Translations under genes and position numbers: made by a program
Notes under the pieces: generated by a model
Databases searched by the model: none
The model's input: the letters and a program-made list of their open reading frames with translations, nothing else
Told to the model about the DNA's origin: nothing
Source of the DNA: Sipunculus nudus
Taxonomy: Eukaryota; Annelida; Sipuncula; Golfingiida; Sipunculidae
DNA: 64,000 nt
NCBI GenBank assembly: GCA_026874595.1
Contig: CM049313.1
Span: 71,354,659-71,418,658 of the forward strand
Direction: 5' to 3'
Part shown: one piece after another, positions 34,795-61,000 of the stretch
Layout of the letters: every line of letters starts with the position of its first letter
Position numbering within the stretch: position 1 is the first letter of the stretch

Positions 34795-36061
34795 TCTTTG
34801 AATAAAATATCCCTCAAAATATGTGGTCAGGGGTTCTGGTACAGATTACATGTTTTCTGGATGAGAGAGTAGAGGAGGACGCAAATGTTGCGCTTGTCAG
34901 GTGATTTACTGTTTACATTGCCAACGGTAACCTGATTGTTTGCTCGTAAACTGCTCTGCACATGATTATTCATTGGATGAATATACGATTAGGGTCACAT
35001 AAAGGTCATGGTCAGGTCAACTGATCAAAGTAAGCTACTGTCTGATCAACCTACAACCAGGTGCTCTCATTGTGTTCAATATGACCTCAGACGAAACGTC
35101 CGGAAGCTCGTTTTTTGACCGTTGAACAAAATATCCATCATTTAGATAGCACGTTACACACGTACAGATAATTCCTTGTTTTCTTCACCAGCTTTGTAGA
35201 CGATAGACGGCGACAATGGATTACGTTTTTTATGTACAATCGCAACTATTACAACCATTCCTTCTTCATCCATACAAACAAACGAAAACTAAAACTACCT
35301 AACCAATAAAATCAGTCCATTACATATCACGTGTCATTTCTATTTTTACCTGAGATGATAAAATGACAAATGCATTCAATGCATTTGTAAATATTAAACA
35401 ACGTCCGGTATGAGGACGCAAACTCTGTGTGGGAGATAGTGTTCAAAGTTGGCGCCATGGAAAGTAAATTAAACGTGTGTTATTCCTAGGATTTTAATTG
35501 AAAATATTCGGTAAAATACTAAAAAAAACTAAAGCCTTCCTTACAGACTGAACAGAACAGAAAATAATATTGGTGCACATTGATTATGAAAAAAAAAATT
35601 AAATTCCCTCCTTTGCCTCACAGTGTCTATCAAATTGAGCCTGTCATTAATAAATGTTAGCCCCAGTGATATACACATCATTGGAATATATATATATACG
35701 TATATATATTTATTTATAAAGGTCATTGTTGGCCTGATTTATAAAGCAAATTTTTTATTTTTAATCCAACAAATAACGCGATATATCTTGTCTCTGGCAT
35801 TTAGGGCAATTTGTGTACATTCGAGAATAACCTTATTAATCACAATATCTCATGTTTTTTTTTCTATTGCATATTTAACTTGTTTCCTTCTTAAACTAAA
35901 TTTAATAAATATTGACAATTGAACATTTTGTTTTTATAAATGTATAGTTCACACACACACTATATATATATATATATATAAATAAATAAATATATATATA
36001 TATATATTTACATATATAAATATATGAGAACCACTTTATGACCATGATCCGTTTTCTCTGT
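34795..36061. other. Spacer Z between X copy 2 and the 36.1-kb module
   Basis: Includes 34888-34990, which matches the flanks of element B at 11325-11351 and 11898-11990 without the element between them. Otherwise AT-rich with (TA)n; no gene seen. Confidence 0.5.
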
Positions 36062-36191
36062 CACTTGACATATAGCCAACAGAGGATAACGAGGGCAAAC
36101 CGCAGCATGGTTTACCGCTCATAGTGTTCAACATATTTGCGCACAGTTAAGGGACAGAAGCCATGGGAAACAGGCTTCAGCAGTGCAAGGT
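36062..36191 (+). promoter_or_regulatory. Diverged first-exon module (MGNRLQQCK)
   Basis: A CACTTG E-box variant at 36062 lies 101 bases before ATG 36163. The exon 36163-36189 encodes MGNRLQQCK and ends in phase 0 at GTAATG, the same shape as MGNTVHPQCK at 55084. Upstream sequence no longer aligns clearly with the other modules, so relationship is inferred from architecture and the shared CAGTGCAAG|GTAATG end. Confidence 0.4.
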
Positions 36192-36539
36192 AATGGCTAT
36201 TTTTGTAACATTATTGTCCTTTTTAACACTCTTTTTATGCATTACATACCATGACATTTATATTGGACTCGTGCCATTAATTTCTCGCGTGATTTCATTA
36301 ATTCGATTTATCAATGATATAATGCTGAAATGGATGTTAACATGAGCATGTACGATTGTACGTGTGTTTTCATGAGTGTTTGTTTTTAGTATGTAAATAT
36401 AAACAATTTATATGTGTTCTGGTATGTGTTTGTTTGTTTATATGTATCTATGCATATTTTACGTTTGAATATTTGCATATGTGTATGTGTGGATATGTAG
36501 AAATTTATTTATGTTTATGTAGGTGAAGATTTGAAAGTA

Positions 36540-36595
<56 letters not shown>

Positions 36596-36598
<3 letters not shown>

Positions 36599-36785
36599 TG
36601 AAACCTCGTGTGGAAGTCGAAGGGGACCTATGGAAAAATTCATCACATCCGAGAAATTTTATAAATAAGCGTGTTTTATTTCGTAATAATTTAACTAGAG
36701 TTGTCCGGAATATCGAGTCTGTAACTTGGACATAAACGGGGTATTAATCGACTTAAGCGACTTCGATCACAACGAGGTTTCACTG
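36596..36785. mobile_element. pogo/Tigger-like MITE, copy 2
   Basis: The same 190-base element within Y copy 2. Here the right end ACGAGGTTTCACTG is a perfect complement of the left end, so this copy preserves the ancestral terminus better than 33658-33847. Confidence 0.8.
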
Positions 36786-36929
36786 TATATATATGTCGGA
36801 TTTTGCAGCTATGGAGTTGCTGGTACATAACTATGTAGGTGTTCACCTAGAGAGATATATGATTACCAAGCTAATTCACTGTGTAGGACATAGAACATGA
36901 ATACACGGAGAAGTCGGATAACTCCGTAT

Positions 36930-36992
36930 AGGAATCGAAAGCATGACCTTCCGATTGCCAGTCGTTTGCTCTACCACTTAGCTAAGGTGAAC
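36930..36992 (-). repeat. tRNA-like sequence, duplicate
   Basis: Same sequence as 33990-34052, carried along in Y copy 2. Confidence 0.5.
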
Positions 36993-37260
36993 CCCAACCC
37001 CAGTTTAAATTGGCATACTTTCATGGGAACCAGCGAACGTCACAGTTTAGTGACGTCATGGTACTTAGTAACATGATATACCACATGTGTCGACACAGCG
37101 ACCTGGCATGCAGCATTGAGAACTGGTGGACTTTAAGTAAGATAGCTATCTGTGTATCTGTGTATGTATGTATAGCAATCAGAGAATGTTCATTTAATCT
37201 GTCCCCTGTTAGCAGTGATTACAAGGCATGTCACTCCAGACACTTATATGTTTATGGCAC

Positions 37261-38940
37261 AACTTTTTCCCTCAGGTCAGGTTTCACAGCCAGACGTGTA
37301 TTAATTATGCGGCATTGAGAGCCATTCTAGCGTGTAAACGAAATACTTGATGCATGATGAAAACATACATATCACCTCTTGGTATTTCATTTGCAAAGTT
37401 TTAAAAAAAGTTAGAGGTACAGATAACAATCAGTTTAAGAATGTTATAAACATTACCTTATTCCAAGAATTAAGTCTCTCGTAACAATGTTTTATTTCAA
37501 GCATTTATTGTCTGAGCAAGGCCCACCTCAATTATCTAGTCTTTCAGAACAAATTCGATTTAAAGTTTGTAGTCTCTCGGTACAAGTCTAATCGTATGTA
37601 TATCATCGAAAAAATTTAAAAGTATATATTTTCTCAGAACAAACTTTACTTCAAGAAGTTAATCTCATTTCATGTATTTAGTTTTACAGAAGAAGAATTA
37701 TTCGAAGTATCCAAACTCTTGGAGCACAATTTTTTTCAGCCATGCAGTCTCTCAGGACAAATTTGATTCAATCTTAATTAACACCCGCCATGAATATTAA
37801 CTTCGGAGTTTAAGCTGCTTGTGAAACTGATCATCCCAATCATGACAGACTTAGCCATCCAATCGTTAAATATTCAGTACAAGGCATATAAATTTATAGA
37901 TTCCTTGGACCATGTCTAAAATAAAATAGGTGCAAAACGTTTATTAAAATAATGCAGTTTAGATGATAATTCAAATTGATTTTAATAGAATTAGTTCTTC
38001 AAAGTTATGACCACTGGCAGCTTTTGTTGCATTTAACAAAATCAAAACTTTGTTTTACCCTATATGCTTCCTTATGCGGGGAACTGTCTATAATAACCCA
38101 TCTAATTCTTAATAGTATCCGAAACGAGATTATTTGATAATTTACCGATTGCAGGCCTTGAAATCTTCCAAGAAAGTAATATTTTGTATATATGTGAAAA
38201 ATTTGTAAAGTACTTTAAAGGAAAATGACATCAAACCTAATTATGACTGGCGGATGCAGCAAGCTCGGAATTAAAAAGCTGTTCCCAGAAACTGGTCCCC
38301 GGGCAACATCAAATCTTCCTCAAGTATGTCCGAATGAAACAACTTATTTTACCAGTTCTTACAACGCCACCTGTAGGCTGCAATTTGACCCAAACATGGC
38401 CGAAGTTGGCTTAAAAGAGAAAAAAATCCACACCCGGTAATAGCCATGATGCGTAGATTTCAGTGACGTTACACCTGTAATTATTATGTGGCGGTTATGT
38501 TCAAGCTCCAGCGGCACCTAGACCCAGTTGTGGCTCTGGAGTATACTATAGGGCCACAACAGGGTCCATAATGGCTCCTATTTCCGATGTACACGTGTCA
38601 GGCAGTCCTCCGTCAAATGGGACATTTCGTTCACTCTCAGTTTGCGCCGAATCACTCTCAAATAAAAAAGAATCAGCCGTCTAGGAATTTTTGGTACAGA
38701 TTAAATACGATTAAATACGCCAGTCGTGTAGTTGTAATTGTGGAGAAGAGAATAGAAGATAAAAATAGAAAGATTTTTTTTTTCAAGAAAAAATACATGC
38801 ACAGAGCATATTTGTTATTCTTTTGCGATAAGGACTAAATGAAAACGTAGCATTTTTAAGAGTCCGTATATATGCAACGTAAATAGGAGGCGGGTTTTTT
38901 TTTTTTTTTTTTTTTTTTATTTTGCGTCAAATGTGACAAA
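37261..38940. other. Intergenic, weak degenerate repeats
   Basis: Around 37460-37770 a motif like AGTCTCTCRGNACAA recurs at irregular spacing. The frame at 38225-38440 (MTSNLIMTGGCSKLGIKKLF) has no recognised homologue and no intron context. Poly-T run near 38895-38918. Confidence 0.4.
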
Positions 38941-39700
38941 TTTTGATTTTAAAGTTTAAATAGAAACGACCTCTGAGGGAAGGGTGAATCATTTCTAAGA
39001 AAGGTGGGTTCAAGTAACGGATATGGAGGACCATTGTGTCATGACCATTATTTTATACCTATTCATCTATAGCAAATACAATTAATTACACCCTGCATGT
39101 AAATTGTGGATAAGGATTAATTTCATTCATGTAGATCCGCTTAGAGCAGGGAGGGCCAAAATCCCTTTACCTTAAAGTTACCCAATCCGGTCTGTCACGT
39201 GACGGGCAGGCGAGGTGGTCGTGAGATGGGACAAACAGGCCGACGAAGGCATCTTCGCTTTTGAGATATATATAATGTTAAATGTGCCATATATTTCAAG
39301 GATCATAGTTATGGGGACAAAGTGCATCCGCAGTGCAAGGTAATGACTACTAAGAGTCCCGTGTTTTTGGTTTCAGGCCGACTAACATTGTTCTGTTTGG
39401 TGTGTGTCTGCGTGTACTGCCCTAATAGCCAATATCTAAGCACTATCGATGTGTGTATATTTATGTATGTAAATACTTGGTGTTTGCAGGCACCGTTTTA
39501 CAACAGGTAGGACAAACAGGTGTGTAGATGCGTAGAGTTTCTAAACATAAGTCTTTTGCAGTTGTTATCAAAACACCTTATTCTCAAACAGAAGTTGGAG
39601 AACCCTAAGAGGTCGAAGAAATAATTACGAAAATTACAAATACAATTGAAAGGACAGAAAATTATGAAAAACATAACATGAAGAGGATACATATATATAA
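38941..39700 (+). promoter_or_regulatory. Promoter/first-exon module, frameshifted copy
   Basis: Aligns with 54716-55400 over roughly 700 bases, both upstream and in the intron side. CACGTG at 39196-39201, TATATATAA near 39270, ATG at 39311. The exon to the GTAATG donor is 29 bases here against 30 in the intact copy. The single-base loss changes the reading (MGTKCIRSA) and leaves phase 2, which would break exon 2. It ends where the 145-bp satellite begins. Confidence 0.6.
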
Positions 39701-39734
39701 GGACTTAAGGTGATGTTAACGACTACATTCAGCC

Positions 39735-42700
39735 TTACAAGCCTACACTCAGCCCAGTAGGGAGAAAACGGAATCTGTCGTCACGGTTTGACTGTGTTCT
39801 ACGTCACTTTTTGAGCCTTAACTAAGCCATCTAGGTAGAAAACGAGAGCTGTCATCACGGTATTACTGTGTTCTACGTCACTCTTATAGCCCTAACTAAG
39901 CCTTGCAGGGAAAAAACGGGATGTCATCACGGTGTGACTGTGTTCTACGTCACTTTTTGAGCCTTAACTAAGCCATCTAGGGAGAAAACAGGAGTAGTGA
40001 TCACGGTATGACTGTGTTCTTCGTTACTGTTATAGTCTTAACTAAGCCCTGCAGAGAAAAACGGGATGTCATCACGGTGTGACTGTGTTCTACGTCACTT
40101 TTTGAGCCTTAACTAAGCCATCTAGGGAGAAAACAGGAGTAGTGATCACGGTATGACTGTGTTCTTCGTTACTGTTATAGTCTTAACTAAGCCCTGCAGA
40201 GAAAAACGGGATGTCATCACGGTGTGACTGTGTTCTACGTCACTTTTTGAGCCTTAACTAAGCCATCTAGGGAGAAAACAGGAGTAGTGATCACGGTATG
40301 ACTGTGTTCTTCGTTACTGTTATAGTCTTAACTAAGCCCTGCAGAGAAAAACGGGATGTCATCACGGTGTGACTGTGTTCTACGTCACTTTTTGAGCCTT
40401 AACTAAGCCATCTAGGGAGAAAACAGGAGTAGTGATCACGGTATGACTGTGTTCTTCGTTACTGTTATAGTCTTAACTAAGCCCTGCAGAGAAAAACGGG
40501 ATGTCATCACGGTGTGACTGTGTTCTACGTCACTTTTTGAGCTTTAACTAAGCCATCTAGGGAGAAATCGAGAGCTGTCATCACGGTATGACTGTGTTCT
40601 TCGTTACTGTTATAGTCTTAACTAAGCCCTGCAGAGAAAAACGGGATGTCATCACGGTGTGACTGTGTTCTACGTCACTTTTTGAGCCTTAACTAAGCCA
40701 TCTAGGGAGAAAACAGGAGTAGTGATCACGGTATGACTGTGTTCTTCGTTACTGTTATAGTCTTAACTAAGCCCTGCAGAGAAAAACGGGATGTCATCAC
40801 GGTGTGACTGTGTTCTACGTCACTTTTTTAGTCTTAACTAAACCCTACAGGGAGAAAACGGCAGCTGTCATCAAGGTATGACTGTGTTCTACGTCACTTT
40901 TTGAGCTTTAACTAAGCCATCTAGGGAGAAAACGAGAGCTGTCATCACGGTATGACTGTGTTCTTCGTTACTGTTATAGTCTTAACTAAGCCCTGCAGTG
41001 ATAAACGGGATGTCATCACGGTATGACTGTGTTCTACGTCACTTTTTTAGTCTTAACTAAACCCTACAGGGAGAAAACGGCAGCTGTCATCAAGGTATGA
41101 CTGTGTTCTACGTCACTCTTATAGCCATAACTAAGCCTTGCAGGAAAAAAACGGGATGTTATCACGGTTTGACTTTGTGCTACGAAACTTTTATAGCCTT
41201 AACTAAGCTCTGCAGGAAAAAACGAGAGCTGTCATCACGGTATGACTGTGTTCTTCGTTACTGTTATAGTCTTAACTAAGCCCTGCAGAGAAAAACGGGA
41301 TGTCATCACGGTGTGACTGTGTTCTACGTCACTTTTTGAGCCTTAACTAAGCCATCTAGGGAGAAAACAGGAGTAGTGATCACGGTATGACTGTGTTCTT
41401 CGTTACTGTTATAGTCTTAACTAAGCCCTGCAGAGAAAAACGGGATGTCATCACGGTGTGACTGTGTTCTACGTCACTTTTTGAGCCTTAACTAAGCCAT
41501 CTAGGGAGAAAACAGGAGTAGTGATCACGGTATGACTGTGTTCTTCGTTACTGTTATAGTCTTAACTAAGCCCTGCAGAGAAAAACGGGATGTCATCACG
41601 GTGTGACTGTGTTCTACGTCACTTTTTGAGCTTTAACTAAGCCATCTAGGGAGAAAACGAGAGCTGTCATCACGGTATGACTGTGTTCTTCGTTACTGTT
41701 ATAGTCTTAACTAAGCCCTGCAGAGAAAAACGGGATGTCATCACGGTGTGACTGTGTTCTACGTCACTTTTTGAGCCTTAACTAAGCCATCTAGGGAGAA
41801 AACAGGAGTAGTGATCACGGTATGACTGTGTTCTTCGTTACTGTTATAGTCTTAACTAAGCCCTGCAGAGAAAAACGGGATGTCATCACGGTGTGACTGT
41901 GTTCTACGTCACTTTTTTAGTCTTAACTAAACCCTACAGGGAGAAAACGGCAGCTGTCATCAAGGTATGACTGTGTTCTACGTCACTTTTTGAGCTTTAA
42001 CTAAGCCATCTAGGGAGAAAACGAGAGCTGTCATCACGGTATGACTGTGTTCTTCGTTACTGTTATAGTCTTAACTAAGCCCTGCAGAGAAAAACGGGAT
42101 GTCATCACGGTGTGACTGTGTTCTACGTCACTTTTTGAGCCTTAACTAAGCCATCTAGGGAGAAAACAGGAGTAGTGATCACGGTATGACTGTGTTCTTC
42201 GTTACTGTTATAGTCTTAACTAAGCCCTGCAGAGAAAAACGGGATGTCATCACGGTGTGACTGTGTTCTACGTCACTTTTTGAGCCTTAACTAAGCCATC
42301 TAGGGAGAAAACAGGAGTAGTGATCACGGTATGACTGTGTTCTTCGTTACTGTTATAGTCTTAACTAAGCCCTGCAGAGAAAAACGGGATGTCATCACGG
42401 TGTGACTGTGTTCTACGTCACTTTTTGAGCTTTAACTAAGCCATCTAGGGAGAAATCGAGAGCTGTCATCACGGTATGACTGTGTTCTTCGTTACTGTTA
42501 TAGTCTTAACTAAGCCCTGCAGAGAAAAACGGGATGTCATCACGGTGTGACTGTGTTCTACGTCACTTTTTGAGCCTTAACTAAGCCATCTAGGGAGAAA
42601 ACAGGAGTAGTGATCACGGTATGACTGTGTTCTTCGTTACTGTTATAGTCTTAACTAAGCCCTGCAGAGAAAAACGGGATGTCATCACGGTGTGACTGTG

Positions 42701-44610
42701 TTCTACGTCACTTTTTTAGTCTTAACTAAACCCTACAGGGAGAAAACGGCAGCTGTCATCAAGGTATGACTGTGTTCTACGTCACTTTTTGAGCTTTAAC
42801 TAAGCCATCTAGGGAGAAAACGAGAGCTGTCATCACGGTATGACTGTGTTCTTCGTTACTGTTATAGTCTTAACTAAGCCCTGCAGTGAAAAACGGGATG
42901 TCATCACGGTATGACTGTGTTCTACGTCACTTTTTTAGTCTTAACTAAACCCTACAGGGAGAAAACGGCAGCTGTCATCAAGGTATGACTGTGTTCTACG
43001 TCACTCTTATAGCCATAACTAAGCCTTGCAGGAAAAAAACGGGATGTTATCACGGTTTGACTTTGTGCTACGAAACTTTTATAGCCTTAACTAAGCTCTG
43101 CAGGAAAAAACGAGAGCTGTCATCACGGTATGACTGTGTTCTTCGTTACTGTTATAGTCTTAACTAAGCCCTGCAGAGAAAAACGGGATGTCATCACGGT
43201 GTGACTGTGTTCTACGTCACTTTTTGAGCCTTAACTAAGCCATCTAGGGAGAAAACAGGAGTAGTGATCACGGTATGACTGTGTTCTTCGTTACTGTTAT
43301 AGTCTTAACTAAGCCCTGCAGAGAAAAACGGGATGTCATCACGGTGTGACTGTGTTCTACGTCACTTTTTGAGCCTTAACTAAGCCATCTAGGGAGAAAA
43401 CAGGAGTAGTGATCACGGTATGACTGTGTTCTTCGTTACTGTTATAGTCTTAACTAAGCCCTGCAGAGAAAAACGGGATGTCATCACGGTGTGACTGTGT
43501 TCTACGTCACTTTTTGAGCTTTAACTAAGCCATCTAGGGAGAAAACGAGAGCTGTCATCACGGTATGACTGTGTTCTTCGTTACTGTTATAGTCTTAACT
43601 AAGCCCTGCAGAGAAAAACGGGATGTCATCACGGTGTGACTGTGTTCTACGTCACTTTTTGAGCCTTAACTAAGCCATCTAGGGAGAAAACAGGAGTAGT
43701 GATCACGGTATGACTGTGTTCTTCGTTACCCTTATAGTCTTAACTAAGCCCTGCAGAGAAAAACGGGATGTCATCACGGTGTGACTGTGTTCTACGTCAC
43801 TTTTTTAGTCTTAACTAAACCCTACAGGGAGAAAACGGCAGCTGTCATCAAGGTATGACTGTGTTCTACGTCACTTTTTGAGCTTTAACTAAGCCATCTA
43901 GGGAGAAAACGAGAGCTGTCATCACGGTATGACTGTGTTCTTCGTTACTGTTATAGTCTTAACTAAGCCCTGCAGTGAAAAACGGGATGTCATCACGGTA
44001 TGACTGTGTTCTACGTCACTTTTTTAGTCTTAACTAAACCCTACAGGGAGAAAACGGCAGCTGTCATCAAGGTATGACTGTGTTCTACGTCACTCCTATA
44101 GCCATAACTAAGCCTTGCAGGAAAAAAACGGGATGTTATCACGGTTTGACTTTGTGCTACGAAACTTTTATAGCCTTAACTAAGCTCTGCAGGAAAAAAC
44201 GAGAGCTGTCATCACGGTATGACTGTGTTCTTCGTTACTGTTATAGTCTTAACTAAGCCCTGCAGAGAAAAACGGGATTTCATCACGGTGTGACTGTGTT
44301 CTGCGTCACTATTATAGCTTTAACTAAGCCTTGCAGGGAGAAATCAGGAACTATCATCAGGGTATGACTGTGTTCTACGTCAAATTTTTAGTTTCAACTT
44401 AGCCCTGTAGGGAAAAAACGGGATCTGTCATCACGGTATGACTGTGTTACATCGTTTTATAGCCTGAACTGAGCCCTGCAGGGAGAAAACGGGACCTGTC
44501 ATTACGGTATGACAGTGTTCTACATAACGTTTACAGCCTTAATTTAGCCCTGCAGGGAGAAAACAGGATTTGTCGTCACGGTATGACTGTGTGGACTTTG
44601 TCACTTCCCT
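39735..44610. repeat. Satellite: about 72-bp monomers in 145-bp dimers
   Basis: Two alternating monomers: one with GTTCTTCGTTACTGTTATAG and CCCTGCAGAGAAAAACGGGA, the other with GTTCTACGTCACTTTTTGAG and CATCTAGGGAGAAAACAG. The CCCTGCAGAG landmark recurs at 40046, 40191, 40336 and 40481, a 145-bp period. Roughly 67 monomers. Longer blocks also repeat: a marker at 41097 recurs at 42985 (1888 bp) and 44074 (1089 bp). Non-coding. Confidence 0.95.
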
Positions 44611-45593
44611 GCACATTCTCTGACATAGCGTATGCAATACGAAAGGTTTCCTGGTTAATAAAAATAAAAATTAACAAATATAACAGACAAACACACACAC
44701 ACACACATGTATATCTTTCCTATGTGTTTTACCTGGCTTAAAATTGCTATAGCTTCCAGGTAAAGACTGAAAAAAAATAATAATTTGAGTATAAAGAGAG
44801 TAATGATAAAGTCAAATATTATACTTTAAATAAATAGGTATAAATAATCATTTAAATTTTAAAATTTTACATATATGAATAAAAGATAAATAAATTAAAA
44901 TGGCTTCTTTTAATGAGGACCTGACAGTTCTATGGATAAGTATCAGATAAATATATGAATAATTCAGATAAAATATCTTGTCTGTGAGAAAATGTATAAA
45001 GAGAATAAACGATATACCTAATGCTATAAGCCTATACTAAATAGCCTAGTCTAAACGTACCACAGTGATATTTAGCATTTTACAAATGGCTTGTCTCTGA
45101 CGGCTAGTACAATGTGCTACCTTTTCGATACAAACTAATCCGTCCATATCTTTGCCACTGTTTTAGCAATTCCAAAAAAGTAGAAGGATCGGGCAACATT
45201 ATCACGGTCGGAGGGTGCCACGTTGTCCTGTCTGCTTCCTTAACTCCAGAGATCACATGACCACCGCTTTGTGTTCTGGGATAACCTGGGATGTTTTCTT
45301 ACGCAAAAAGCTAATATTATAATGAATGAACGATAGAGAAAGAGCGAGAGAAATATTTCTGAATACAGTCATGATTGGATGATTTTTGTCAACTTGTTAT
45401 TGATAACCAGCTCTGATTGTTTCGACTACAAAATTGATTTAAAGAAGAATTTTCTATTAAAGTGGTCCGACGGAAGACCTTTTCATGTATAACATTTGGT
45501 GAATTGTTTATAGAAGCATGTAAGGAACATGTAGGCAACATGTATGACATTTCAAAGGCGATGTCTTTGTTTTATTATCATGAAAACCCTCTT

Positions 45594-45594
<1 letters not shown>

Positions 45595-45665
<71 letters not shown>
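45595..45665. repeat. (CT)n microsatellite
   Basis: About 35 CT dinucleotides directly before the 33-bp array. A similar run lies at 49169-49218. Confidence 0.95.
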
Positions 45666-45668
<3 letters not shown>

Positions 45669-45729
45669 ACCCAATATAACGACCATTCGGTAAAACGATC
45701 ATTCATTGACACGCATACAACCACTTCAC

Positions 45730-48560
45730 GCTGACGACTTCTCCAAAGAACCAACCCATTATGATGACTATCCCCTTTACAATCTTCGTACACGACCAAC
45801 CTATTATGAGGACCTACCCGGAGCACGATCACCCAGTTATGACGACAATCTCCGATAACGACCATCCCATTATGCCGAAAATCCCGTAACACGACCACCC
45901 AACAATGACGTCAGTCCCCTAACACGACCAATCCATTAAGACGACAGTCCCCTTACACGATCACCGCATTAGGACGACATTCCCCTATCACAACCACCCC
46001 TTTATGACGGCATTCCCTTAACCCATTATGACGACAGTCCCCATACAGGACCATCGCATTATGACGACATTCCCCTAACACGACCACATCATACTAACGA
46101 GAGTCCCCTAACACCAATCCTTTTTGACGACAGTCCCCTTACACGATCATCGCATTAGGACGACATTCCCCTATCACGACCACCCCATTATGACGGCAAT
46201 CCCGTTACACGACCACCCTATAATTACGAGAGTCCCCTTACACGACCAACCTGTTATGACGAGAGTTCCCTTACACGACCACCGCATTATGACGACATTC
46301 CCCCAACACGACCACATCATACTGACGAGAGTCCCCTAACACGACCAATCCATTATGAAGACATTCCCCTAACACGACCACCCCATTATGACAAAAATCC
46401 CATGACACGACCAACCCATAATGACGACAGTCCCTTAACACGACCACATCATACTGACGAGAGTCCCCTAACACGACCAATCCATTATGAAGACATTCCC
46501 CTAACACGACCACCCCATTATGACAAAAATCCCATGACACGACCAACCCATAATGACGACAGTCCCCTAACACGACCAACCCATTATGACGACATTCCCT
46601 TAACACGACCATCCAATTATGACAAAACTTACATAACACGACCACCCCATTATGATAACAATCCCGTAAAACGACCACCTAATAACGACGAGAGTCCCCT
46701 TACACGACCATCGCATGATGAACACAATCCCTTGTACAATCACTCGATGATGACAACGATTCCCTGTACCACCACCCCATTATTACGATTCCTCTCATAC
46801 GACACCCCATGATAACAACAATCCCTAATACAACCAACCCCTTATGACGAGTCCCCTTACACGACTACCCCATAATGACAACAAAACCTTATACAACCAC
46901 CCCATTATAACAACAATCTCTTATACATCCCCCCATAATGACAACATTCTCTTATCCAACCAACCCATTATGACAACAATACCTTATACACCACATCATG
47001 ATGACAACAACCCCTGATACAACAACCCCATTATGGCGAGTCTCCTCACACGACCACCCTATTACGAACACCCCAACACAACAACCCTATTATGAAGAGT
47101 TCCCTGACGCGACCACCCCATTATGACAACAATCTCTTATACAACCACATCATCATGACAACAAACCCTTATACAACTACCCCATTATGACAACAATCCC
47201 TTAAAAGACCAACCCATCATACGAATCCCCTAACACAACCACCCCACTATGACGACAGTAACTTAACACGACCACCCCACTATGACGACAGTAACCCAAC
47301 ACGACCACCCCATTATGACTAAAGTGCCAAAACGCGACAACCCTGTTATAACGACAGTCCCCTTAAACAATCCCTTATACAACCAACCCATTATGACGAG
47401 TTTCCTTACCAGACCACCCCATTATGACAAAAAACGCTAATATAATCTCCCCATTTGACGAGTCCCCTAACACGACTACCCCATGATGACAAAACCCCCT
47501 AATAAAACCAACCCATCATGACAAAATCCTTTAAACAACCACGTACCCATTGTGACGAGTCCGCTCATACGGCTAACCCATGATAACAACAATCCCTAAT
47601 ACAACCACCCCATTTTGACGAGTCCCCTAACACGAATACCACATGATGACAATAATTCCTGATAAAACAAACACCCTTATGACGAGTTCCCTAACGGGAC
47701 GACAGTAACCTAACAAGTGTCCAAACGCGACCACCCTTTTTTAACGACAGTCCCCTTAAAGAATCCCTTATACAACCAATCGAAAATGAGTTCCCTAACG
47801 GGACCTCCCCATTATGACAAAAAAACTAATAAAACCAACCAATTATGAAAACAATCTCTTATACAACTACCCCATTATGACAACAATCTCTTATACCACC
47901 ACCCCATTATGACACTAATCTCTTATACAACCACATCATGATGAGAAAAACCCTAATACAACCACCCAAATAAGCCAACAATCCCTTAAAGGACCAACCC
48001 ATTATATGAGTCCCCTTACACAACCATCCCATTATGCCGACAGTAAACTAACACGACCACCCCATTATGACAACAATTTCTTTTACAACCACCCCATAAT
48101 GACAACAATCTCTTTCACAACCACCCCATTATGACAACAATCTCTTATACAACCACCCCATTATGACACCAATCTCTTATACAACCACATCATGATGACA
48201 AAACCCCTTATAAAACCAACCCATTATGACAACAATCCTTTATACAACCACGTACCCATTATGACGAGTCCACTCATACAACCACCCCATGATAACAACA
48301 ATCCCTCATACAACCACCCCATAATGACGAGTCCCTTAACATGACTTCTCCATTATGACAACAACACCTTATACAATCACCCCATTATGACAACAATCTC
48401 TTATACAACCACCCAATTATGAGGAGAACCTTTAGGACACTACCCCATGATGACAACAATCCCTTATACAATCACCCCATTATGATAACAGTCCCTTATA
48501 CAACCACCCCTTAATGACAACACATTCCTTACACGACCATCCCATTATGACGCCCATCCC
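45730..48560. repeat. Degenerate 32-33-bp minisatellite
   Basis: Unit about CACGACCACCCCATTATGAC + GACAGTCCCCTAA (33 bases) in the left part. It shifts to a 32-base TACAACCACCCCATTATGAC + AACAATCTCTTA form on the right. Roughly 85 copies, much more diverged than the 39.7-kb satellite. Spurious frames with an RPTHYDDSPLT-type repeat arise because 33 is divisible by three. Confidence 0.9.
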
Positions 48561-48719
48561 AAAAATAAAAACGACCATCCGGCTTTCAGGCCACAAAGAC
48601 TAACCCCCGTGAACGTTCATGTGGAGGTAGTTATATTCCTAAAACTGTGAGTGGGCAAGGAAAACCAATGGTTCATTACGGAGCGTAATAAATAGAGATA
48701 ATGGTGACAAAAAAGGCCT

Positions 48720-48858
48720 GTTGCTCACGTGTGTGGAAATTCCTATATAAACGATAGTGACGTTATCAGTGCGCACAGTTTTAAGCACACAACAAGCTTC
48801 TTGTGTGCTTAACTGTTAATGAGCAGTGTTAAAAATTAATATGCCGAGCAAGGTAAGT
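48720..48858 (+). promoter_or_regulatory. Promoter and short start exon (MPSK), related architecture
   Basis: CACGTG at 48726-48731, TATATAA at 48744-48750, a TCAGT initiator-like site near 48766, then ATG 48841 with ATGCCGAGCAAG and a consensus GTAAGT donor in phase 0. The E-box to ATG distance is 115 bases, like the MGN modules, and GCGCACAGTT is shared with the 36.1-kb module. It could serve copy 2 as a distant alternative start or be a relic of another gene. Confidence 0.4.
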
Positions 48859-49170
48859 ACTGTTTTACTTGCTATATATATATATTCATTCAATATTAAC
48901 ACACTCCGCATTCGTGTAGGATTTCCATGTAAACGGCAAAATCGATCATATGTGATGGGTACAATTTTTGTTAGCAGACTGATTACCACCAAGTTCTATG
49001 GAAAACTTTGTATCGTTTCTTTGCGCTGCACATTAACTTAACCCGTGCTTGTTTTTATACAGAAATTGTTCTCCTGTCAGGAATAGGATTTAGTTAGTAA
49101 TGTGTAGTCTGCTTTCGTATAATGGTCAAAGAGCGATTTTAGATATAAGGACAGCAGCATCTCTCTGTCT

Positions 49171-49220
<50 letters not shown>

Positions 49221-49229
49221 CACACATAT

Positions 49230-52200
49230 ATATATAAATATAATAAACAATGGTGCACACTGTACTCTGTTATGGTATCATGATCGGCTAGCAACACTTT
49301 TTCAACCCTCTCCAAGAAAATGTAAATAAATTATTAAATTTGCAGACCTAACAATAGAAATCATACATCATTTTTAAAGCTAAGAAAATATTGTGTCTTT
49401 CAGTATGCGTTGGTGAGAATACCTGAGGAAGAAAATCATTTGAATTTTAAAAATTGAAAAAAAAAATCATATAAAGATACCTTAAAGTTCAGGATTAACC
49501 GGTATCGGTTCGTTTGATAGAGCTCACAAGAACATAAGAGAATTGACGATTGCTTTAGATTTTTTTTCATTCTTGATCTTATTTAATTTTAATGGAATCA
49601 CCTACAATTTTTTTATAAATCATGCAATATTTAGGTCAAACTCGGTGTCGTTTTACTTTCCTGTGACTGGACTTCAAACGGGAACCTTCACTTTCGAAAT
49701 CCCAAATCATACAGGTGCTTCCTCCTACCCCCTCACACTTGCATTTTGCCCTTTATTATATGTATATTTTTTACACCTACATGCCTATATGTAAACTTGT
49801 GCATACCTTATTAATGCATGGCGCTAGACATTGCTGAGACTTGAACATTTATTACAGGAAATCATGACTTTAGGTCACTTGCCAAGTAGCTATCCAAACA
49901 AGTACTTAATCAAACAACAAATTACGTGAACCTAAATGATACGGGAAATCTGTGCACTGTGTTTATAATGGTTGTTACAACAGGTGTGGAATTATTTATT
50001 ATACCCCTTACAATATCACGCACGCCGTTATGCATTAGGATATAAATAACCGATACGTAAGCTTATATAGCAATATGCAATATAACAGAAGATATTTCCA
50101 TATTGAGTAACTCATATAGCGTTATTAAACACGGAGCAGGCGTATTTAGTGCATGTATGAGGATTTGGTTAGATCGGCACGTAATGGCATATCTAATATA
50201 TTGAAAGGCGTTCATATATTACTCAGCCCATACCTAGTGGCCCATTCCAATACTTTATAAGTGTTAACTTAAGGTAATCCATTGAACCTTTCATTGTTAT
50301 AAGCCAGAAAAGGACATGCCAAGAAGCAAAAAGCTGGGGCGCCCGCCAAGGTAATCCTCGTACGACGGGTGTTTTTGGGTATTCCGTGTGGTTGACGTAC
50401 GGCAATCGTGCTTTTTTTCGCAGGTGGCAGATACACTCGCGAATGGTGGCCTTGGGACACCGGATGGCCTCTGGCCACCAACCCGCCGTGCACCCTTCTT
50501 GATCTGTTTTCTTCCGCCAATATCATAAACAGTTCCATGAAAGAACATCAAATTCAGACTAAAATATTTTGTTAGTTTACTTCTTTCATTCAAGAACACC
50601 TCAGGTAAATCATGGTGGCCCAGGAATACAGTATTGGTACGATGCTGTGCACAAGGGCTTGTCACAGAAGACTGATTAAATAATATCCCGGAATTTTGAT
50701 CCACAATCCACCAAGAATAAGCGATACAACCGATTGTGACAAATACAGCTCTTTGGCTACGTAGTAACAACACTCAATGAACTGTATATGTAATTTTGGG
50801 TTGTATCACTTATTCCTGGGTTTTGTGGCTCAAATTCCGGGATATTAATTTTTTTTTCAGCTTCTGTGACAAGCACCTGTGATGCTGTGTGTCCTCGTGG
50901 CCACCACAGGTATAATTCTGTATACCCCTGGTGGCCTAAGGACACCACATGTATAATGTTGTGTATCCTGCTGGCCTATCTGCGGAAGGAAACAGATCGA
51001 GAAGGGCGCACCTTTTTTCAAAGGCCGCGAGGACTCCGCAACTATTATAAACCAGAAAAGGACAAGCTAAGAAACAAAGGCTATGGCGCCCGCCAGGTAT
51101 TCCTGCAGTCCCCCCCCCCCCCCCAAAAGTACGTTAAAATATAAACACATTTTACGAAGACATCTGGCGACAAGTCACACGAACCAGAGTTTTGCAATGG
51201 CATTTTGTAATCTGCTGACATTTTATATTCCTCACATATGCAACCAACAACCTTCAGTTACATGGTGTTACATGGTATTGGCGCATATTCGGTCTATACG
51301 AACAGTTTGTAGATAAAAAGGGTCATGCATTAAATATAATGCTTATAATGCCTGTAACCGAGGCATTATAAGAATCCTAGCAGGAATTACCTAAAGTTCA
51401 TAATTGTGTTGGCAAGGTAAGCCACACCTTACATAAATGCTGCAGACAAGCAAATTATATATATAATTTGGGCCCCAGTGTTCATTTGAATGGGTATGGC
51501 AAAATAAGAAATACACTGAGTAATGACAATTAAGGGCAAAACTCGTTGGATTATCTTTGCTCTCCCGAGCTGTGTGTCATTTGAATGACATCGTAAAAAT
51601 TATTAAACTTAACGTTATTTAACGTTACAGTTTAGTAAACGTTACATTAACAGAGTGGATCTATGCGCAAGCTTTATAATCGGTCCAGAAAGAGTCTTTT
51701 ATAAATAAAATCAACATGACAACACGGGCAATCCCCATGTTTGGACACAGAGCCAGGAAAAGTATTAATTCTACATATCACTTATACTAATTTAAACCAA
51801 CAGGAACTTTTTTTTGATTATCTGACTATTTAAAAATAAACACGTCATGGCATTATAATAAAATTATTATTTGAAAGGTACACCGTTTTTGTACACTTCG
51901 GAAGCTTTTAATGAAAAGCTCAGATTTTTACTTACAATAATAACCGGTATTAGTCATAACAACCAATTGATGCGCAACTCACTTCTTGAGATTTTCAGGT
52001 TATGTAATTTCCACAAAACTGAACTTTAGTAAACCCCTTTTGGTTTAAACATCCGTTTTTTTCTCATGCTTTTAGGAAATAAACCACATTCTTCCGACAG
52101 TACTGACCAGGCAAAGAGTGCGCGGTGACAATACTTGCGAGAAATAGTACTTTTGGTAGCATATATATTGTTGTGTGTTAGCTTAGTGCGCCCGCCAAGT

Positions 52201-53139
52201 CAATATGTGCCACACCCTTGTGATATGCTGATCATAACATCACGACTTTCAACACGTTTTTCTAATTGGGTTTGACGTAGTCTGATGTAATATTTTATGT
52301 CTAGAGAGTTTTAATCCTTCTCCTGAATCACAGTACTTTTGAAGTAAGCTATGGAATTTTTTTTTCTAAATGAGCTTATGAATGGCAACTATTTATATTT
52401 CAATCTAAACAACCTCAATCGTGTTGATACAAAAATATCTACGTCATTTTTTAAACGTCCATGTAGCTAGAATTGTATATTACTACTTTTGAAGTAAGAC
52501 ATAGAATGTTTATTTTGCCTTAATGACTATATGAATGACACTGTTTATTTTTCCAATTTTTCAATCTCAATAAAAAACCTCAACACTCTTTATACCTTCG
52601 TATAGCGATTTTTATTGTTTTATTGAATTGTAAGGACAGAATACTCTACGAGGACCCTTTGGGGTTTTAGTAGGTGTAGAAGATATAGGCGTTTCGGGGA
52701 ACTTGTGTAAGATAAGGAACAGAACTGCGCCCACAGGCACTTTCATATCAATTATTGTTATATCTTGAACTGCCTCTCCGACGCTCGTCATTGCCATTAA
52801 GATTAGACTGAACTGGTGGAGCTACCGCCAGTGATATAACCTCTCGCTGAGTAAGTTACAGCTACCCTTATATTGGATCAAATATGAAATACACCGTATA
52901 TCATTTCTGATCATACTTCACCAAATTCGAAACTAGCCTGCATTTGTTATGAGAATTCATCACCAATTTGGTTATATTTGCATATGCAGGTAACAAACGT
53001 TTCCTCTCGTCTTAAAATGGTTCAAGGATTTTGAAGTAGGCCGATTCTATATTATATCAATGTGAATAAATATGTGTTCCCCCCCCCCCCCCCCCTTCCA
53101 TAAATCCTGGCGACGTCCTTGGTGACGAAGGGTAATTAG
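49230..53139. other. Intergenic or far-upstream region of copy 2, no supported gene
   Basis: Apart from the composite repeat at 50290-51105 it holds AT-rich sequence and poly-C runs (about 51112-51124 and 53081-53095). If the MPSK start at 48841 is used, this would be intron 1. Confidence 0.5.
50290..51105. repeat. Composite direct/inverted repeat region
   Basis: AAGCCAGAAAAGGACA..GGCGCCCGCCA at about 50304-50350 recurs in the same direction at 51048-51100. Between them GCACCCTTCTTGATCTGTTT (about 50489) is mirrored by AAACAGATCGAGAAGGGCGC (about 50990). Probably a degenerate transposable element; no confident gene. Confidence 0.4.
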
Positions 53140-53470
53140 CAACTAAGAATTGTGGGTTAAAGTAACGGATATTGAGGCCCATTGTGCGCGACTAATATTT
53201 TACCTATTCATCTTTAACAAATACAATTAATTACACCTTGCAGGTCAATTGTCGATTGGGATTAATTACATTAAAGCAGATCCGCTCAGTGCGGGCAGGG
53301 CCAAAACCCCTTTAGTTTATAGTTACCGAATCCCGTCTGTCACGTGGCTGACAGGCAGGAGAAGTTGTCGCGAGAACTGACCGACGAAACACATTTTCGC
53401 TAGTTGAATATATTTATTGTTAAAAGTGTCATATACTTCAAGAATTTCAGGCATGGGAATCCATTCATCA
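53140..53470 (+). promoter_or_regulatory. Promoter/first-exon module, decayed copy
   Basis: Same order as 54716-55130: shared TAACGGATATTGA-type sequence, CACGTG at 53341-53346, GACGAAACACATTTTCGCT, then ATGGGAA at 53453. The coding tail and splice donor are lost, so it cannot act as the same start exon. About 1.5 kb separates it from the intact copy. Confidence 0.55.
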
Positions 53471-53837
53471 AATTTTACCAAAAGTTGAAAACTAGTTTAA
53501 ATAAACTGTGTAGCTAGATATTAAAGAATACCTGTTTTAACCTGATGGATAAATCTGGAGCATACAGAGGCGTCAATTCCTCTTCCACAATGGATAGGAA
53601 ATATTTTACTCTTTATATGCACATGTCAAAGAAATTCGTGTTAAGTGTTGGGCCGCTTATACATTAGTGTTTGGGTATATTTTATACTTTAATAAAATAA
53701 CTTGCTATTCGGCTCTGCCAAAGCAATTTTGTTAAAATTCATCTTTATATAATTTGAGGACTTGAAACACGCCGCATTCATGTTCTATTCATCCATCATG
53801 GGAAATGACATTCTTGATTAGGCCAAAGAAAAAAAAG

Positions 53838-54112
53838 TATGCATCTCAGGCACTTTTTTCAGAAATCAGTGCGGTCGGGTGATATTTAATTTTGACCTTT
53901 TTTGTATGTTTCGATAAAAATGCCATATGATCAGGGAAAAAAGCCTGAAAACAACATAATTTTAAGGGTAAACAGGTAAAAGCACCACATAACAAAGGAA
54001 ATCTTATAAAAATTGTGTTATTTTAACTTCTCATATGACGAAAATCAAAATAAAAATTTTTGATGCGGGGGTTAAAATTTTAATTGACGCGGGCGGTGCC
54101 TAAGAACCATAC
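53838..54112 (+). mobile_element. MITE family A, fullest copy
   Basis: CATCTCAGGCAC at the left and GGTGCCTAAGAACCATAC at the right, with the whole interior present. About 275 bases, non-coding. It lies between two promoter modules. Confidence 0.7.
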
Positions 54113-54715
54113 CCATTATTTTTTTTGGCCTTTCATGGAAACAATAGTTTTTATGACAGTTGCGTCCATATAGTCTAAACTGATATTGACATGGACAATA
54201 GAGTTTGTGTAAAACAGCAACCCACGCTTCATCTTCTGAGAGAAGTTGCAGTCATGCAAGGTCACGTGCTAATACGCTATAAATAACCACAATAATTTAA
54301 AACCAGTGACCTTTCCTATCAGGTATTTTATCTCCTGGAGTCTTGATCAATCCATGAGAACTAATCAACGATACCGGTTGTTGCATCTCAGATCATATAC
54401 TCATGATGCCGCTGTGAAGGTACCCATTAAACAGAGAGATAAAGATCACAGGAACAAGTCAAATGTCACAAAGAATTCATTAATTAATGCATCTAGCAGC
54501 ATATCATCAACTCTTATTAGCAAGCGTGCAGCATCCAGGTTTTCTATTGAGCCAGTTTCCCTGCTTGATTCTCGATACGCGTAGATTCTGATAGATTTTT
54601 CGAGATAGCCCCCTTAGCGAATTAATGTCAAAGTTCTGAAGATTTATAGACTCCCCTTGGAACATTCATATATCTGAAACGTAAACAGGAAAATTTTTTC
54701 ATTGAGAGTGACAAA

Positions 54716-55400
54716 TTTTGATTTTAAAGTTTTAGTAGAAAACGACCTCTGACGAAAGGGTGATCCGCTTCAAAGAAAGGTGGATTAAAGTAACGGATAT
54801 TGACGCCCATTGTGTCATTTCTATTATTTTACCTATTCATCTATAGCATATACAATTAATTATACCCTTCAGGTCAATCGTCGCATGGGATTAATTTCAT
54901 TATAGCTGATCCGCTCAGTGCAGGCAGGGCCAAAATTCCTTCTAGTCTATGGTTACCCAATTCCGTTTGTCACGTGACTCACAGGCTGGAGAGGTGGTCG
55001 CGAGAACAGACTGACGAAACACATTTTCGCTATTCGTATATATTTACTGTAAAAAAGTTTCGTATATTTCAAGGAATTCAGGCATGGGAAACACAGTGCA
55101 TCCGCAGTGCAAGGTAATGACTAAGAGTTCTGTGTTTTTGGCTTTATGCCAGCCAACATAGGCTACCCAGGTTGCCAAAATCTAAGTAAATACTGGGTTG
55201 ACGCATTATTCATTTGGCTAACAGGTATGTAGATGTGTAAACATGTGTCTTTTTGTACATAAACTGCAGTTGTTATCAAGTCACCTGATTCTCAGCGAGA
55301 AGTTAGAAAACTCTAATGAGTCTAAGAAATAATTAAGAAAACATGAATGAAAGGACGGTAAATTATGGAAAACATACCATGAAGAGGACATGCATAAGGA
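54716..55400 (+). promoter_or_regulatory. Promoter/first-exon module, intact copy (copy 2 promoter)
   Basis: Aligns along its length with 38941-39700 and in part with 53140-53470. Contains CACGTG at 54971-54976, a TATATATT stretch near 55038, and the ATG at 55084 followed by a GTAATG donor. Directly upstream of copy 2 exon 2, so the likely active promoter of copy 2. Confidence 0.55.
55084..55113 (+). CDS. Copy 2 exon 1 (probable start exon)
   Basis: ATG to phase-0 donor GTAATG, encoding MGNTVHPQCK. Joining to 57788 continues GSSEEDSQQL in frame. A CACGTG E-box lies 113 bases upstream (54971-54976) and a TATATATT stretch between. Gly2 allows N-myristoylation in principle, but position 6 is His and not Ser/Thr, so this is only a possibility. 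A near-copy (39311-39339) lacks one base. Confidence 0.6.
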
Positions 55401-57517: not shown

Positions 57518-58783
57518 TTATATATATATATATAAACATGAAACAGAGCTTTTATAAAGAAATGATATACAAAAAGAAATGAAGCGTATCGTCAATACGT
57601 ATCGGTATCGAATTAATTGTATCGCAATACGTATTGTACCGGATGAGGCGAACCGATACCCAGCCCTATCTTGAAACATTTTGTATTCAAATGAAAAATA
57701 AACCTATACTGTGGAATGTCACGCCTACTTTCAAATGAACATAATACTATATTAATGGACTAATAAGTCATGTTTCATCTCTGACAGGGTTCAAGCGAGG
57801 AAGACAGTCAGCAGTTGCTGGATTATGTGCGCCGAAATGTAATCGGGAAAGATGCCATCTTTACGGGGCCGTTTGGTGATAAGAAAGGCAAGGATATTTA
57901 CATGTTTAATTATTGATTTTGTCGTTACTGGTTTTACTGTGTCGTAACTGGTTTTACTCAGACTCGATGTCTAAACATATCATATCGAAGTCTAGACGTA
58001 TCATATCGATATCTAGACGTATCATACCCATGTTCAGACGTATCATATCGATTTCAAGACGTATTATATCGATGTCTAGACATATCACATCCATGTCCAG
58101 ACGTATCATATCGATTTCAAGAACTAATTTATCGATGTCTAGACGTATCATATCGATGGCTAGACGTATCATGTCGATGTCCAGATGTATCATATCGATT
58201 TCAAGACGTAATTTATCGTTGTCTTTACGTATCACATCCATGTCCAGACGTATCATATCGATTTCAAGACGTATTATATCGATGTCTAGACGTATTATAT
58301 TGATGTCTAGACGTATCATATCGATTGCTAGGCGTATCATGTCGATTTCAAGACGTAATCTATCGATGTCTAGACGTATCACATCCATGTCCAGACGTAT
58401 CATATCGATGTCTAGACGTATCATATCGATGACTAGACGTATCATATCAATGTCTAGAAATATTATATCGATGTCTAGACGTATCAAATCGATATCCAGA
58501 CTATCATATCGATGTCTAGACGTATTATATCGGTGTCTAAACGTATCATATTGATGTCTAGACGTATCATATCGACGTCTTCATGTATCCCCACGTCTTA
58601 CAGTATCATATCCACGTCTACAAGTATAATATTGGTGTCTTTGCGAAGTCATAAAGAAGATGCGTGATTCATTTCTCAATATCTAAGTAATATAAAGATA
58701 AACAGTACAAATCCACAAATCATGGGAATGTATTTAAAACTTTATAGGATAAGAAATGCACTCTAGAAGTCTAAATCTTGAAA

Positions 58784-58848
<65 letters not shown>

Positions 58849-61000
58849 ATTTTTGTCTTTGCAGTGATTTACTGTGATTACGTGGCCTCTGGAAAGTAAG
58901 ATACATTTTGTTTTATCTAATAAGGGTTAAAAAACAAGAAAATGGTAGAATTGTTATAACTCTATTGCATATATATAGGGTCAGTGTTTTAAAACTATAG
59001 AAAGGTATCTTACAGTAACCTACTAATGCTGACAGGCTAGTTAACTAATTAAGAACCTATGAAAGTACCGAATAAAAATATAATGCTAACTTCATATGTT
59101 ATTTAAATATATAGCTTATGAACAGTTTCTCCTTGCTTATTCTGTCCTGTATTATCTATACTCAAGAGGAGTAGTTATGTGTTTGTGCAAAATTGATAGT
59201 CACTATTTTTTCACTCTGAATATGTCATAATTTTTCGATTTGCTGGCTTTTTCTTTATTTCATTCTTCTTATTTGCATGGGATTTATCTTTGTCCGTCCG
59301 TCCGTCTCCTCTCTGTAGGAATATACCTATCACCAATCTGCCGCTAGCACCGCCTCTCTAAAAAAACGGCGTCCAGTTATGTCCGTCTGACTTTCTCTCT
59401 GTCCGTCTGTCTCTCTGTCTATGAGTCTCTCTGTCTATCTCTTTGTGGTAGCTGCAGATTTGTTAACAGTGTTTATAACAAACTATCTTCATGCCCGTAG
59501 TTGTATGTTCGCGGTCTCCCTGTCTCTCCAATGCCATTAGTCATAACTTATTTGACTTTGACAGACCCTTGGTGTTTATAGAGGACTACATACGAGACCA
59601 TGTTCTGCCTTTCTACGCTAATACACACACTACCACCAGTCTCTCCGGGCTACAGACCACGCACTTTCGGCACGAGGCAAGGTTAGTTGTTGTATACGAA
59701 CTAACAAGACATCACATGTGTATATAATAAATATATATGTGTGTGTGTGTGATACAACGTGGCTCGCACGTGCCTGTGTGTGTGTGGGTGTACTTGTGCG
59801 TTTGTGTAAAATATCAAATTGAAGATCTGTGACATGTGTAATCTCATTGACGAATTGTCATTAAAATTGTTTCATCAAACTTTTAAATTATGTCACTTTA
59901 TAATTACCACTCATTAAACCTGCCCCACGGAGAAGATGCAGACATTTGCAGGTTGTTTGATTAATTAAGTCAACCACCGCTGTCCTGACAAACGTGCATC
60001 AGTTGGCAGTCAAATGAAAACATTTGTTCGAAACGCTTGTCAAATTGCTGAATAATAATTACACATTAAATAGATGAATTTATTTAAACATTAATTATAC
60101 AGATTCAACATCCATTCTGGTTTACAGCTTCCTAGTTTTCAAAACTGTGAATTGGTGTACATATATAACATGTAAGGTGGAACGAAATTATAGGGGTTAC
60201 CGATGAGTCAAAAAGAGATAATTACTTTAGCTGGCGAATGTCACATTATAATAATAGAGTAATCAAACATTTAATACGGTTAATAGAGTGTGCGTAAACA
60301 CATCGCTAAATTGTTTGACAACATAATACCAGTACAGGAAGTAGACAGTGACAGGGAGCTTATTTTCAACATACATGAGCAAATAACTATAACCGTGTAC
60401 CTCTATGATCATGACACATACCCATTACATAACCTCCGGCAGTGATATAGAAGTAGAAAAGAAATACCCATCATTTGCATCGTAAAAACACCTTCAGACC
60501 TTGGACCATTAACCCTTTTTCTCAACCATGTTTGGAAAGTTGCCTAAAACAGAGTTTATTAGTATATAACTCATTTACATTCATCTATAGTCTACATCCG
60601 CCTTCATATATATGTATATATGTATGTGTGCGTGTGTGTGTGTTAGGGTATGTGTACATGTGTGTGAGGGTGTGGGTGTGTGTATGCGAATTAATGTTGT
60701 ATATATGAATGTATTAATATCACATATATAAGAAGTTTTACTATATTCGTGTATAATATATGTGTGTGTGTGTATTTTGTTATGATAGCACAGCTTTAAT
60801 GATGCAACGTACGACAACATATAACTTAAACACGGGAACAGCAGCTGCTGCGATGATGATTCATGTGGTGTTGCATTAAAAATTTCAGACCAAGAGTTTA
60901 TCCTCAACAATTGATTCAAAAATTGATACAAATTATATTTTACACTTAGCGAACTCATTTCAGGAAATTTTAATCAATTATGGGCTGAATCTTATTTGAA

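Follow-up and report, generated by a model that had tools for sequence, protein, structure and literature searches.

A 64,000-nucleotide stretch of the Sipunculus nudus genome (C8:71354659-71418658, in an assembly of 1.43 Gb), hereafter the window, holds parts of two tandem copies of one enzyme gene, both on the + strand, together with members of a family of small start modules, each combining promoter-like DNA with a short candidate coding first exon. We added 100 kb on each flank and read 264 kb in all; positions are given in window coordinates throughout, and negative values lie upstream of the window. Copy 1 has its exon 2 at -2.46 kb and its exon 13 at 24.3 kb, and copy 2 occupies 57.79 to about 83.0 kb, reaching past the window end.

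The joined exon translations score 85.7 bits against Pfam PF00266 (gathering score, 21.5; E value, 4.1e-24). Against NCBIfam TIGR01979, the SufS cysteine desulfurase family, they score 110.8 bits, under the curated cutoff of 475.1, and as judged by this profile, the gene product is related to SufS and lies outside TIGR01979. All 43 listed matches to solved PDB structures are to proteins named as desulfurase, selenocysteine lyase, desulfinase, CsdB, or aminotransferase. As read from these matches, the gene is an animal class V aminotransferase/cysteine desulfurase-like (SufS-like) pyridoxal phosphate enzyme, conserved in both copies. The residue is identical at 401 of 426 compared codons in 12 exon cores, with nonsynonymous divergence (dN) of 0.028 and synonymous divergence (dS) of 0.259, and both gene bodies look to be under selection for protein; exons 8b, 9b, 11b, and 12 were also detected and stand outside the 426-codon count.

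The compared cores of nine coding exons (E2, E2b, and E3 to E9) are free of methionine in both copies, and an in-frame TGA lies two codons upstream of exon 2; therefore, a coding first exon is needed upstream. Seven start modules lie there, three before copy 1 (-22.7, -22.2, and -19.4 kb) and four before copy 2, and each gene copy carries at least two homologous first exons in tandem ahead of the shared exons. The modules and their exons are as follows.

Copy 1, exon at -22731: E1c, with a TCACGTGA box and an in-frame stop within the exon.
Copy 1, ATG at -22202: E1b, with GTCACGTGAC at -22301, peptide MGNILKQCK, and donor AAG/GTAAAT; whole.
Copy 1, ATG at -19443: E1a (the -19.8-kb module), with peptide MGNKIHPQCE, box CACGGG for CACGTG, and donor GAA/GTATTC.
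36010 to 36200, + strand: E1b of copy 2, with mutated box GTCACTTGAC at 36060 (CACTTG at 36062) and ATG at 36163.
36163 to 36189, + strand: the 27-nucleotide exon of that E1b, with peptide MGNRLQQCK and donor AAG/GTAATG, in phase 0 with E2.
38933 to 39420, + strand: E1a-1 of copy 2, with GTCACGTGAC at 39194, ATG at 39311, and donor AAG/GTAATG.
From ATG 39311, + strand: the exon of E1a-1, 29 nucleotides and not 30, phase lost.
53123 to 53459, + strand: E1a-2 of copy 2, with CACGTG at 53341 and ATG at 53453; no donor.
54669 to 55162, + strand: E1a-3 of copy 2, with GTCACGTGAC at 54969, TATA-like ATATATTTA, and ATG at 55084; an intact module.
55084 to 55113, + strand: the 30-nucleotide exon of E1a-3, with peptide MGNTVHPQCK and donor AAG/GTAATG.

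Unbroken module exons are 27 or 30 nucleotides long and in phase 0, the same phase as exon 2. A start codon, phase 0, freedom from stops, and a usable donor are combined in three of the seven modules (-22202, 36163, and 55084). The exon at -19443 is in phase, but its donor is nearly dead (U1 pairing of -1.9 versus -6.6 kcal/mol for AAG/GTAATG), and those at -22731, 39311, and 53453 are broken. CACGTG is retained in five modules, and E1b retains its ATG, 27-nucleotide length, and donor in both copies.

The initial annotation had singled out five sites at which an E-box-like hexamer precedes an ATG, and all five hexamer and ATG coordinates proved exact. Its claim that the modules at 38.9, 53.1, and 54.7 kb are homologous was borne out by BLAST over hundreds of bases: identity is 77.8% between 38933-39388 and 54708-55159, 83.6% between 53123-53459 and 54750-55090, and 79.0% between 38995-39303 and 53143-53445. 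The three lesion states that it described are also real, namely, one module intact (55084), one with a single-nucleotide deletion (39311), and one without a donor (53453), with the qualification that the last, an ~340-bp unit, is truncated rather than mutated at the donor, because homology ends 7 bp inside its exon. What ties the 36.1-kb site to the family is its exon, together with the donor (44 bp at 82% identity to the module at 55.1 kb; E value, 2e-5), and its score was reached by 0 of 500 shuffles against the modules at 39.3 and 55.1 kb and against E1c, and by 5 of 500 against E1a of copy 1. E1c aligns with the modules at 39.3 and 55.1 kb (0 of 500 shuffles in each case). A genome search with positions 38900 to 39700 (801 bp of E1a), in which the best candidates only were scored, gave hits at five positions within this locus, which correspond to four modules, one of them split in two pieces; they include DNA upstream of copy 1, outside the window, where the initial annotation had proposed looking for the module. 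The proposed reading of the modules as coding first exons preceded by DNA resembling a promoter, some of them intact and others decayed, is supported.

The fifth site of the initial annotation stands apart from the others.

48726 to 48852, + strand: CACGTG, ATG at 48841, peptide MPSK, and donor AAG/GTAAGT.

Between 27 and 275 of 500 shuffles reached its score against the six modules other than 53.1 kb, BLAST found no match between it and any module, 53.1 kb included, and a genome search with 501 bp around it (common words skipped) returned only the site itself and its own internal inverted repeat. These three results rule it out as a family member, and the proposed five-site family stands by homology at 36.1, 39.2, 53.3, and 55.0 kb and fails at 48.7 kb, where no alignment goes beyond shuffles. 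A near-perfect inverted repeat (48781 to 48812) lies between its box and ATG, and a donor agreeing with the consensus at 9 of 9 positions follows. Box plus spacing was rejected as stand-alone evidence, being near chance by shuffles: the + strand has six CACGTG with an ATG 101 to 115 bp downstream versus 2.4 expected, and 3.7% of 300 Markov shuffles reach six. Three of these six pairs are homologous copies, and two more (6436 and 7800) were absent from the initial annotation. The evidence for the family is homology, not motif or spacing.

E1b and E1a follow each other in the same order before both gene copies. The E1b regions are collinear, with 76.4% identity between -22351 to -22165 (copy 1) and 36010 to 36200 (copy 2), and -21380 to -19336 matches 37165 to 39420 in a single alignment that covers E1a of both copies. 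Collinear blocks connect -22.4 kb to at least 28.7 kb with 36.0 to 93.9 kb, with large unmatched stretches and some rearrangement; an extra block at about 32.0-32.2/97.9-98.1 kb may be a dispersed repeat. Because their DNA is collinear between copies, E1b and E1a predate the gene duplication, and the modules at 36.1 kb (E1b) and 39.2 kb (E1a) arrived when the whole locus, some 50 to 60 kb, was duplicated in tandem. The 53.1- and 54.7-kb modules have no separate counterparts ahead of copy 1 and are sisters in the module tree (-19.8, 38.9, [53.1, 54.7]), with bootstrap values of 100 and 99; they are later copies of the E1a module, restricted to the start region. Repeated duplication of the start region alone, as first suggested for all of these sites, accordingly applies to 53.1 and 54.7 kb and not to 36.1 and 38.9 kb, which are collinear with -22.2 and -19.8 kb.

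We consider it probable that this 5′ region of a SufS-like gene belongs to a tandem-duplicated gene with alternative first exons, whose modules were copied along with it and later underwent birth and death. The ancestor would have carried two or more start modules homologous to each other, E1b and E1a, before the duplication, the ancestral module being a promoter-like stretch with CACGTG about 100 to 115 bp before the ATG of a 27- or 30-nucleotide exon that ended AAG/GT in phase 0 and encoded MGN...QCK. The whole locus, modules included, would then have been duplicated in tandem; in copy 2, the E1a module would have been copied twice more, toward the gene body, and the modules would afterwards have decayed independently. 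The likeliest start is E1b (-22.2 kb) for copy 1 and the E1a of 55.08 kb for copy 2, in which 36.16 kb, its box changed, is a possible second start. The decay pattern fits birth-and-death of first exons. We infer that the upstream DNA would act as promoter and that the module exons would be spliced to exon 2 and, less surely, that unequal module survival would divide expression between the copies.

Copy 1 retains E1b entire (box, ATG, and donor), and its E1a lacks box and donor; copy 2 retains the 55.08-kb E1a entire, and the only damage to its E1b is a mutated box. Since the modules left whole are not the same in the two genes, divergent expression is plausible, and the copies have perhaps been subfunctionalized through duplication-degeneration-complementation. 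A more specific version seems to us doubtful: two homologous CLEAR-box promoters with N-terminal microexons would have been duplicated with the gene, copy 1 keeping E1b and copy 2 keeping E1a (by way of a re-duplicated module that made good the frameshift in the original), so that the two enzymes would differ in their basic helix-loop-helix leucine zipper (bHLH-zip; MiT/TFE-type) responses while gene conversion kept parts of their catalytic exons alike.

Several results weigh against the account as a whole or against a division between the copies. E1c does not align with E1a of copy 1 (105 of 500 shuffles reach the score), and the exon and donor of E1b in copy 2 are intact, with a single box change, which makes the reciprocity imperfect. 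In relative-rate tests, unique changes numbered 23 in the intact 54.7-kb module and 17 in the truncated 53.1-kb module with 38.9 kb as the outgroup (χ2, 0.9), and 18 and 17, respectively, with -19.8 kb as the outgroup; there is no sign of extra constraint on the intact module. At neighboring rates, an ATG, a GT, and freedom from indels would survive by chance in 30 bp with a P value of about 0.08; hence, a single retained exon is weak evidence. Finally, in three further multi-exon genes of the family in this assembly (C8:20.34, C1:35.38, and C11:29.99 Mb; 39 to 84% identical exon by exon), the 11.6, 4.1, and 5.3 kb, respectively, read ahead of E2 yielded no related MGN exon.

A serious contender, which we would place somewhat short of probable, accepts the same anatomy and history and dispenses with any division of labor: each gene would have one working first exon, the rest would be in neutral decay, and the copies would be expressed alike. 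It shares its anatomy with the explanation that we favor, and our confidences in the two overlap. Neutral decay would account for the lack of any difference in constraint between intact and truncated modules in the rate tests, for the disabling lesions in four of the seven modules, and for a locus that is repeat-rich and rearranged, whereas it does less well with the survival of different classes whole in each copy (E1b in copy 1 and E1a in copy 2) and with the retention of the E1b exon and donor in both.

Alternatively, the modules could be relics of whole tandem genes whose bodies were deleted, as the initial annotation had suggested in speaking of vanished gene copies. Several starts do lie between the two gene bodies; however, each of ten exon peptides has exactly two matches in the 264 kb, apart from a partial extra exon 2 in copy 1, and none is matched between 26 and 57 kb (E values up to 0.1), which makes vanished copies very unlikely. 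Moreover, the 36.1- and 38.9-kb modules pair collinearly with copy 1 modules, and homology at 53.1 and 54.7 kb is limited to about 340 to 760 bp of the start region. That the modules are a dispersed repeat carrying CACGTG and ATG by chance is scarcely credible: the window does contain such repeats (e.g., 53834-54125, similar to 2485-2763 and in part to 12169-12312), but the 801-bp E1a query, bearing on the concern first raised about a genome-wide repeat, matched among its best-scoring candidates this locus only, plus two short pieces (65 and 30 bp), each on a different contig.

The 264 kb contains GTCACGTGAC at four places: three lie within modules (-22301, 39194, and 54969) and one in an apparent coding exon of another gene. 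USF, MAX, and other bHLH-zip factors bind its core. Two of the three usable modules (-22202 and 55084) keep it perfect, and its third modular copy is in the frameshifted module at 39.3 kb. The identical 10-mer is described as the CLEAR element bound by TFEB (PMC9562866). A MiT/TFE factor may have a role at the three modules here.

The earliest of the 43 listed PDB matches starts at residue 12 of the joined protein, past the residues of the module exon. The variable part would thus be mainly promoter, because the exon encodes 9 to 10 residues that lie outside the stretch matched to solved desulfurases. Classic N-myristoylation, for which the start pattern is MGxxx[STAGCN] (PROSITE PS00008), was considered for these residues and rejected, position 6 being H, Q, or K in MGNTVH, MGNRLQ, MGNILK, and MGNKIH.

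The remaining exons of the two genes that fall in the window are placed as follows.

57788 to 57887, + strand: copy 2 exon 2, the first shared coding exon, without Met; an in-frame stop lies just before the acceptor.
58865 to 58895, + strand: copy 2 exon 2b (VIYCDYVASGK), ends placed from splice signals.
59565 to 59681, + strand: copy 2 exon 3, ends placed from splice signals.
61464 to 61593, + strand: copy 2 exon 4.
62302 to 62370, + strand: copy 2 exon 5 (core).
63379 to 63444, + strand: copy 2 exon 6 (core).
2253 to 24360, + strand: copy 1 exons 4 to 13; its first exons and E2 to E3 lie upstream of the window.
2254-2382, 3059-3127, 5927-5992, 7128-7265, and 12579-12638, + strand: copy 1 exon cores, first part.
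15105-15215, 19402-19566, 21231-21344, and 24148-24327, + strand: copy 1 exon cores, second part.

Between the copies (2254-24327 versus 61465-82955), dS is a mosaic, with 0.10 over E4, E5, E7, E8, E10, and E13 and 0.57 over E2, E2b, E3, E6, E9, and E11, the two groups having been picked after the values were known. E7 and E10 match at about 94% between copies, intron flanks included, and the mosaic suggests gene conversion tracts. The exon 2 donor is apparently of the GC type (AAAG/GCAAGG) in both copies, at 57888 in copy 2 and about -2365 in copy 1. In copy 1, a partial exon 2 duplicate (-4629 to -4552) has 26 open codons, a TGACAG acceptor, and a donor-like GTATGA end; its phase would suit an additional cassette exon ahead of E2. 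A frameshift that seemed to precede copy 1 exon 4 was rejected as intron beside an intact acceptor. Ten of the window's longer open reading frames had no Pfam match above the curated cutoff, and Rfam gave no match at gathering score within 26000 to 60000.

Among the three distant paralogues, the C1 gene has GT where the tandem pair has the GC donor of exon 2. ATGGGAAAC, 0.8 kb before its E2, was rejected as a related exon, since 51 to 171 of 500 shuffles reached its score against six modules and no CACGTG lies within 200 bp. The C1 gene has GTCACGTGAC roughly 2.1 kb ahead of E2, the C11 gene has TCACGTGA roughly 1.9 kb ahead of E2, and the C8:20.3 gene has neither box within 11.6 kb; given the background rate, the boxes before the C1 and C11 E2 are only suggestive. 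Exon 2 of the C1 and C11 genes appears to contain an ATG itself, so the coding first exon may have arisen only in the tandem pair or in the ancestor of that pair. Elsewhere in the assembly, contigs C61 to C113 contain open frames of 416 to 569 amino acids that are 26 to 29% identical over most of the enzyme (12 matches on 11 contigs) and are probably bacterial DNA in an animal assembly.

The locus has many repeats. Recent direct repeats flank E1b of copy 2 (33522-34322/36466-37262 and 33038-33520/34321-34794; 98.5% and 97.5%), and a satellite of 33 copies of a 145-bp unit, with ACGTCAC in its consensus, fills 39747 to 44592, starting about 400 bp past the frameshifted exon of E1a-1. From 45790 to 48551, there is a C-rich 33-bp minisatellite with strong strand skew (GC skew of -0.55 in 46 to 48 kb). 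Tandem repeats at 8530 to 10305 (30 bp) and, directly after copy 2 exon 2, at 57964 to 58640 (21 bp) have long open frames on both strands.

Fish duplicate mitf genes, a case of subfunctionalization, reportedly (2002) had ancestral alternative exons of which each copy lost different ones. That case reportedly followed whole-genome duplication and included expression data; here, the duplication is tandem, E1a shares homology with E1b, and E1a has been re-amplified in one copy. Variable first exons of UGT1 and GCNT2 are described as undergoing birth and death, one having been lost by a single-nucleotide insertion (PMC1885805), and each UGT1 first exon as having its own promoter (PMC3325998). UGT1, GCNT2, and the clustered protocadherins resemble the locus reported here in having tandem first exons ahead of shared constant exons, with lineage-specific duplication, and UGT1 and GCNT2 also in the loss of variable exons through single-base changes. 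UGT1 first exons, in contrast, supply a signal peptide plus a large recognition domain rather than 9 to 10 residues, and the present cluster of candidate first exons differs further in having later been duplicated whole. Genome-wide, human duplicates are described as commonly losing shared start sites early after duplication (PMC2687787); that is a genome-wide statistic, whereas here individual lesions can be read at one locus. Among the literature titles listed, none concerned this gene; the locus was not searched by name.

As it stands, the locus is a well-resolved example of known processes, and a compact case of one documented mainly in vertebrates in the literature cited here. If expression confirms the account, it would offer a lesion-by-lesion view of alternative promoters being divided between tandem duplicates and would indicate that a re-duplicated promoter unit can replace one whose exon has been frameshifted. 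The two copies seem to have kept different start units, which is a recognized way for duplicated genes to diverge.

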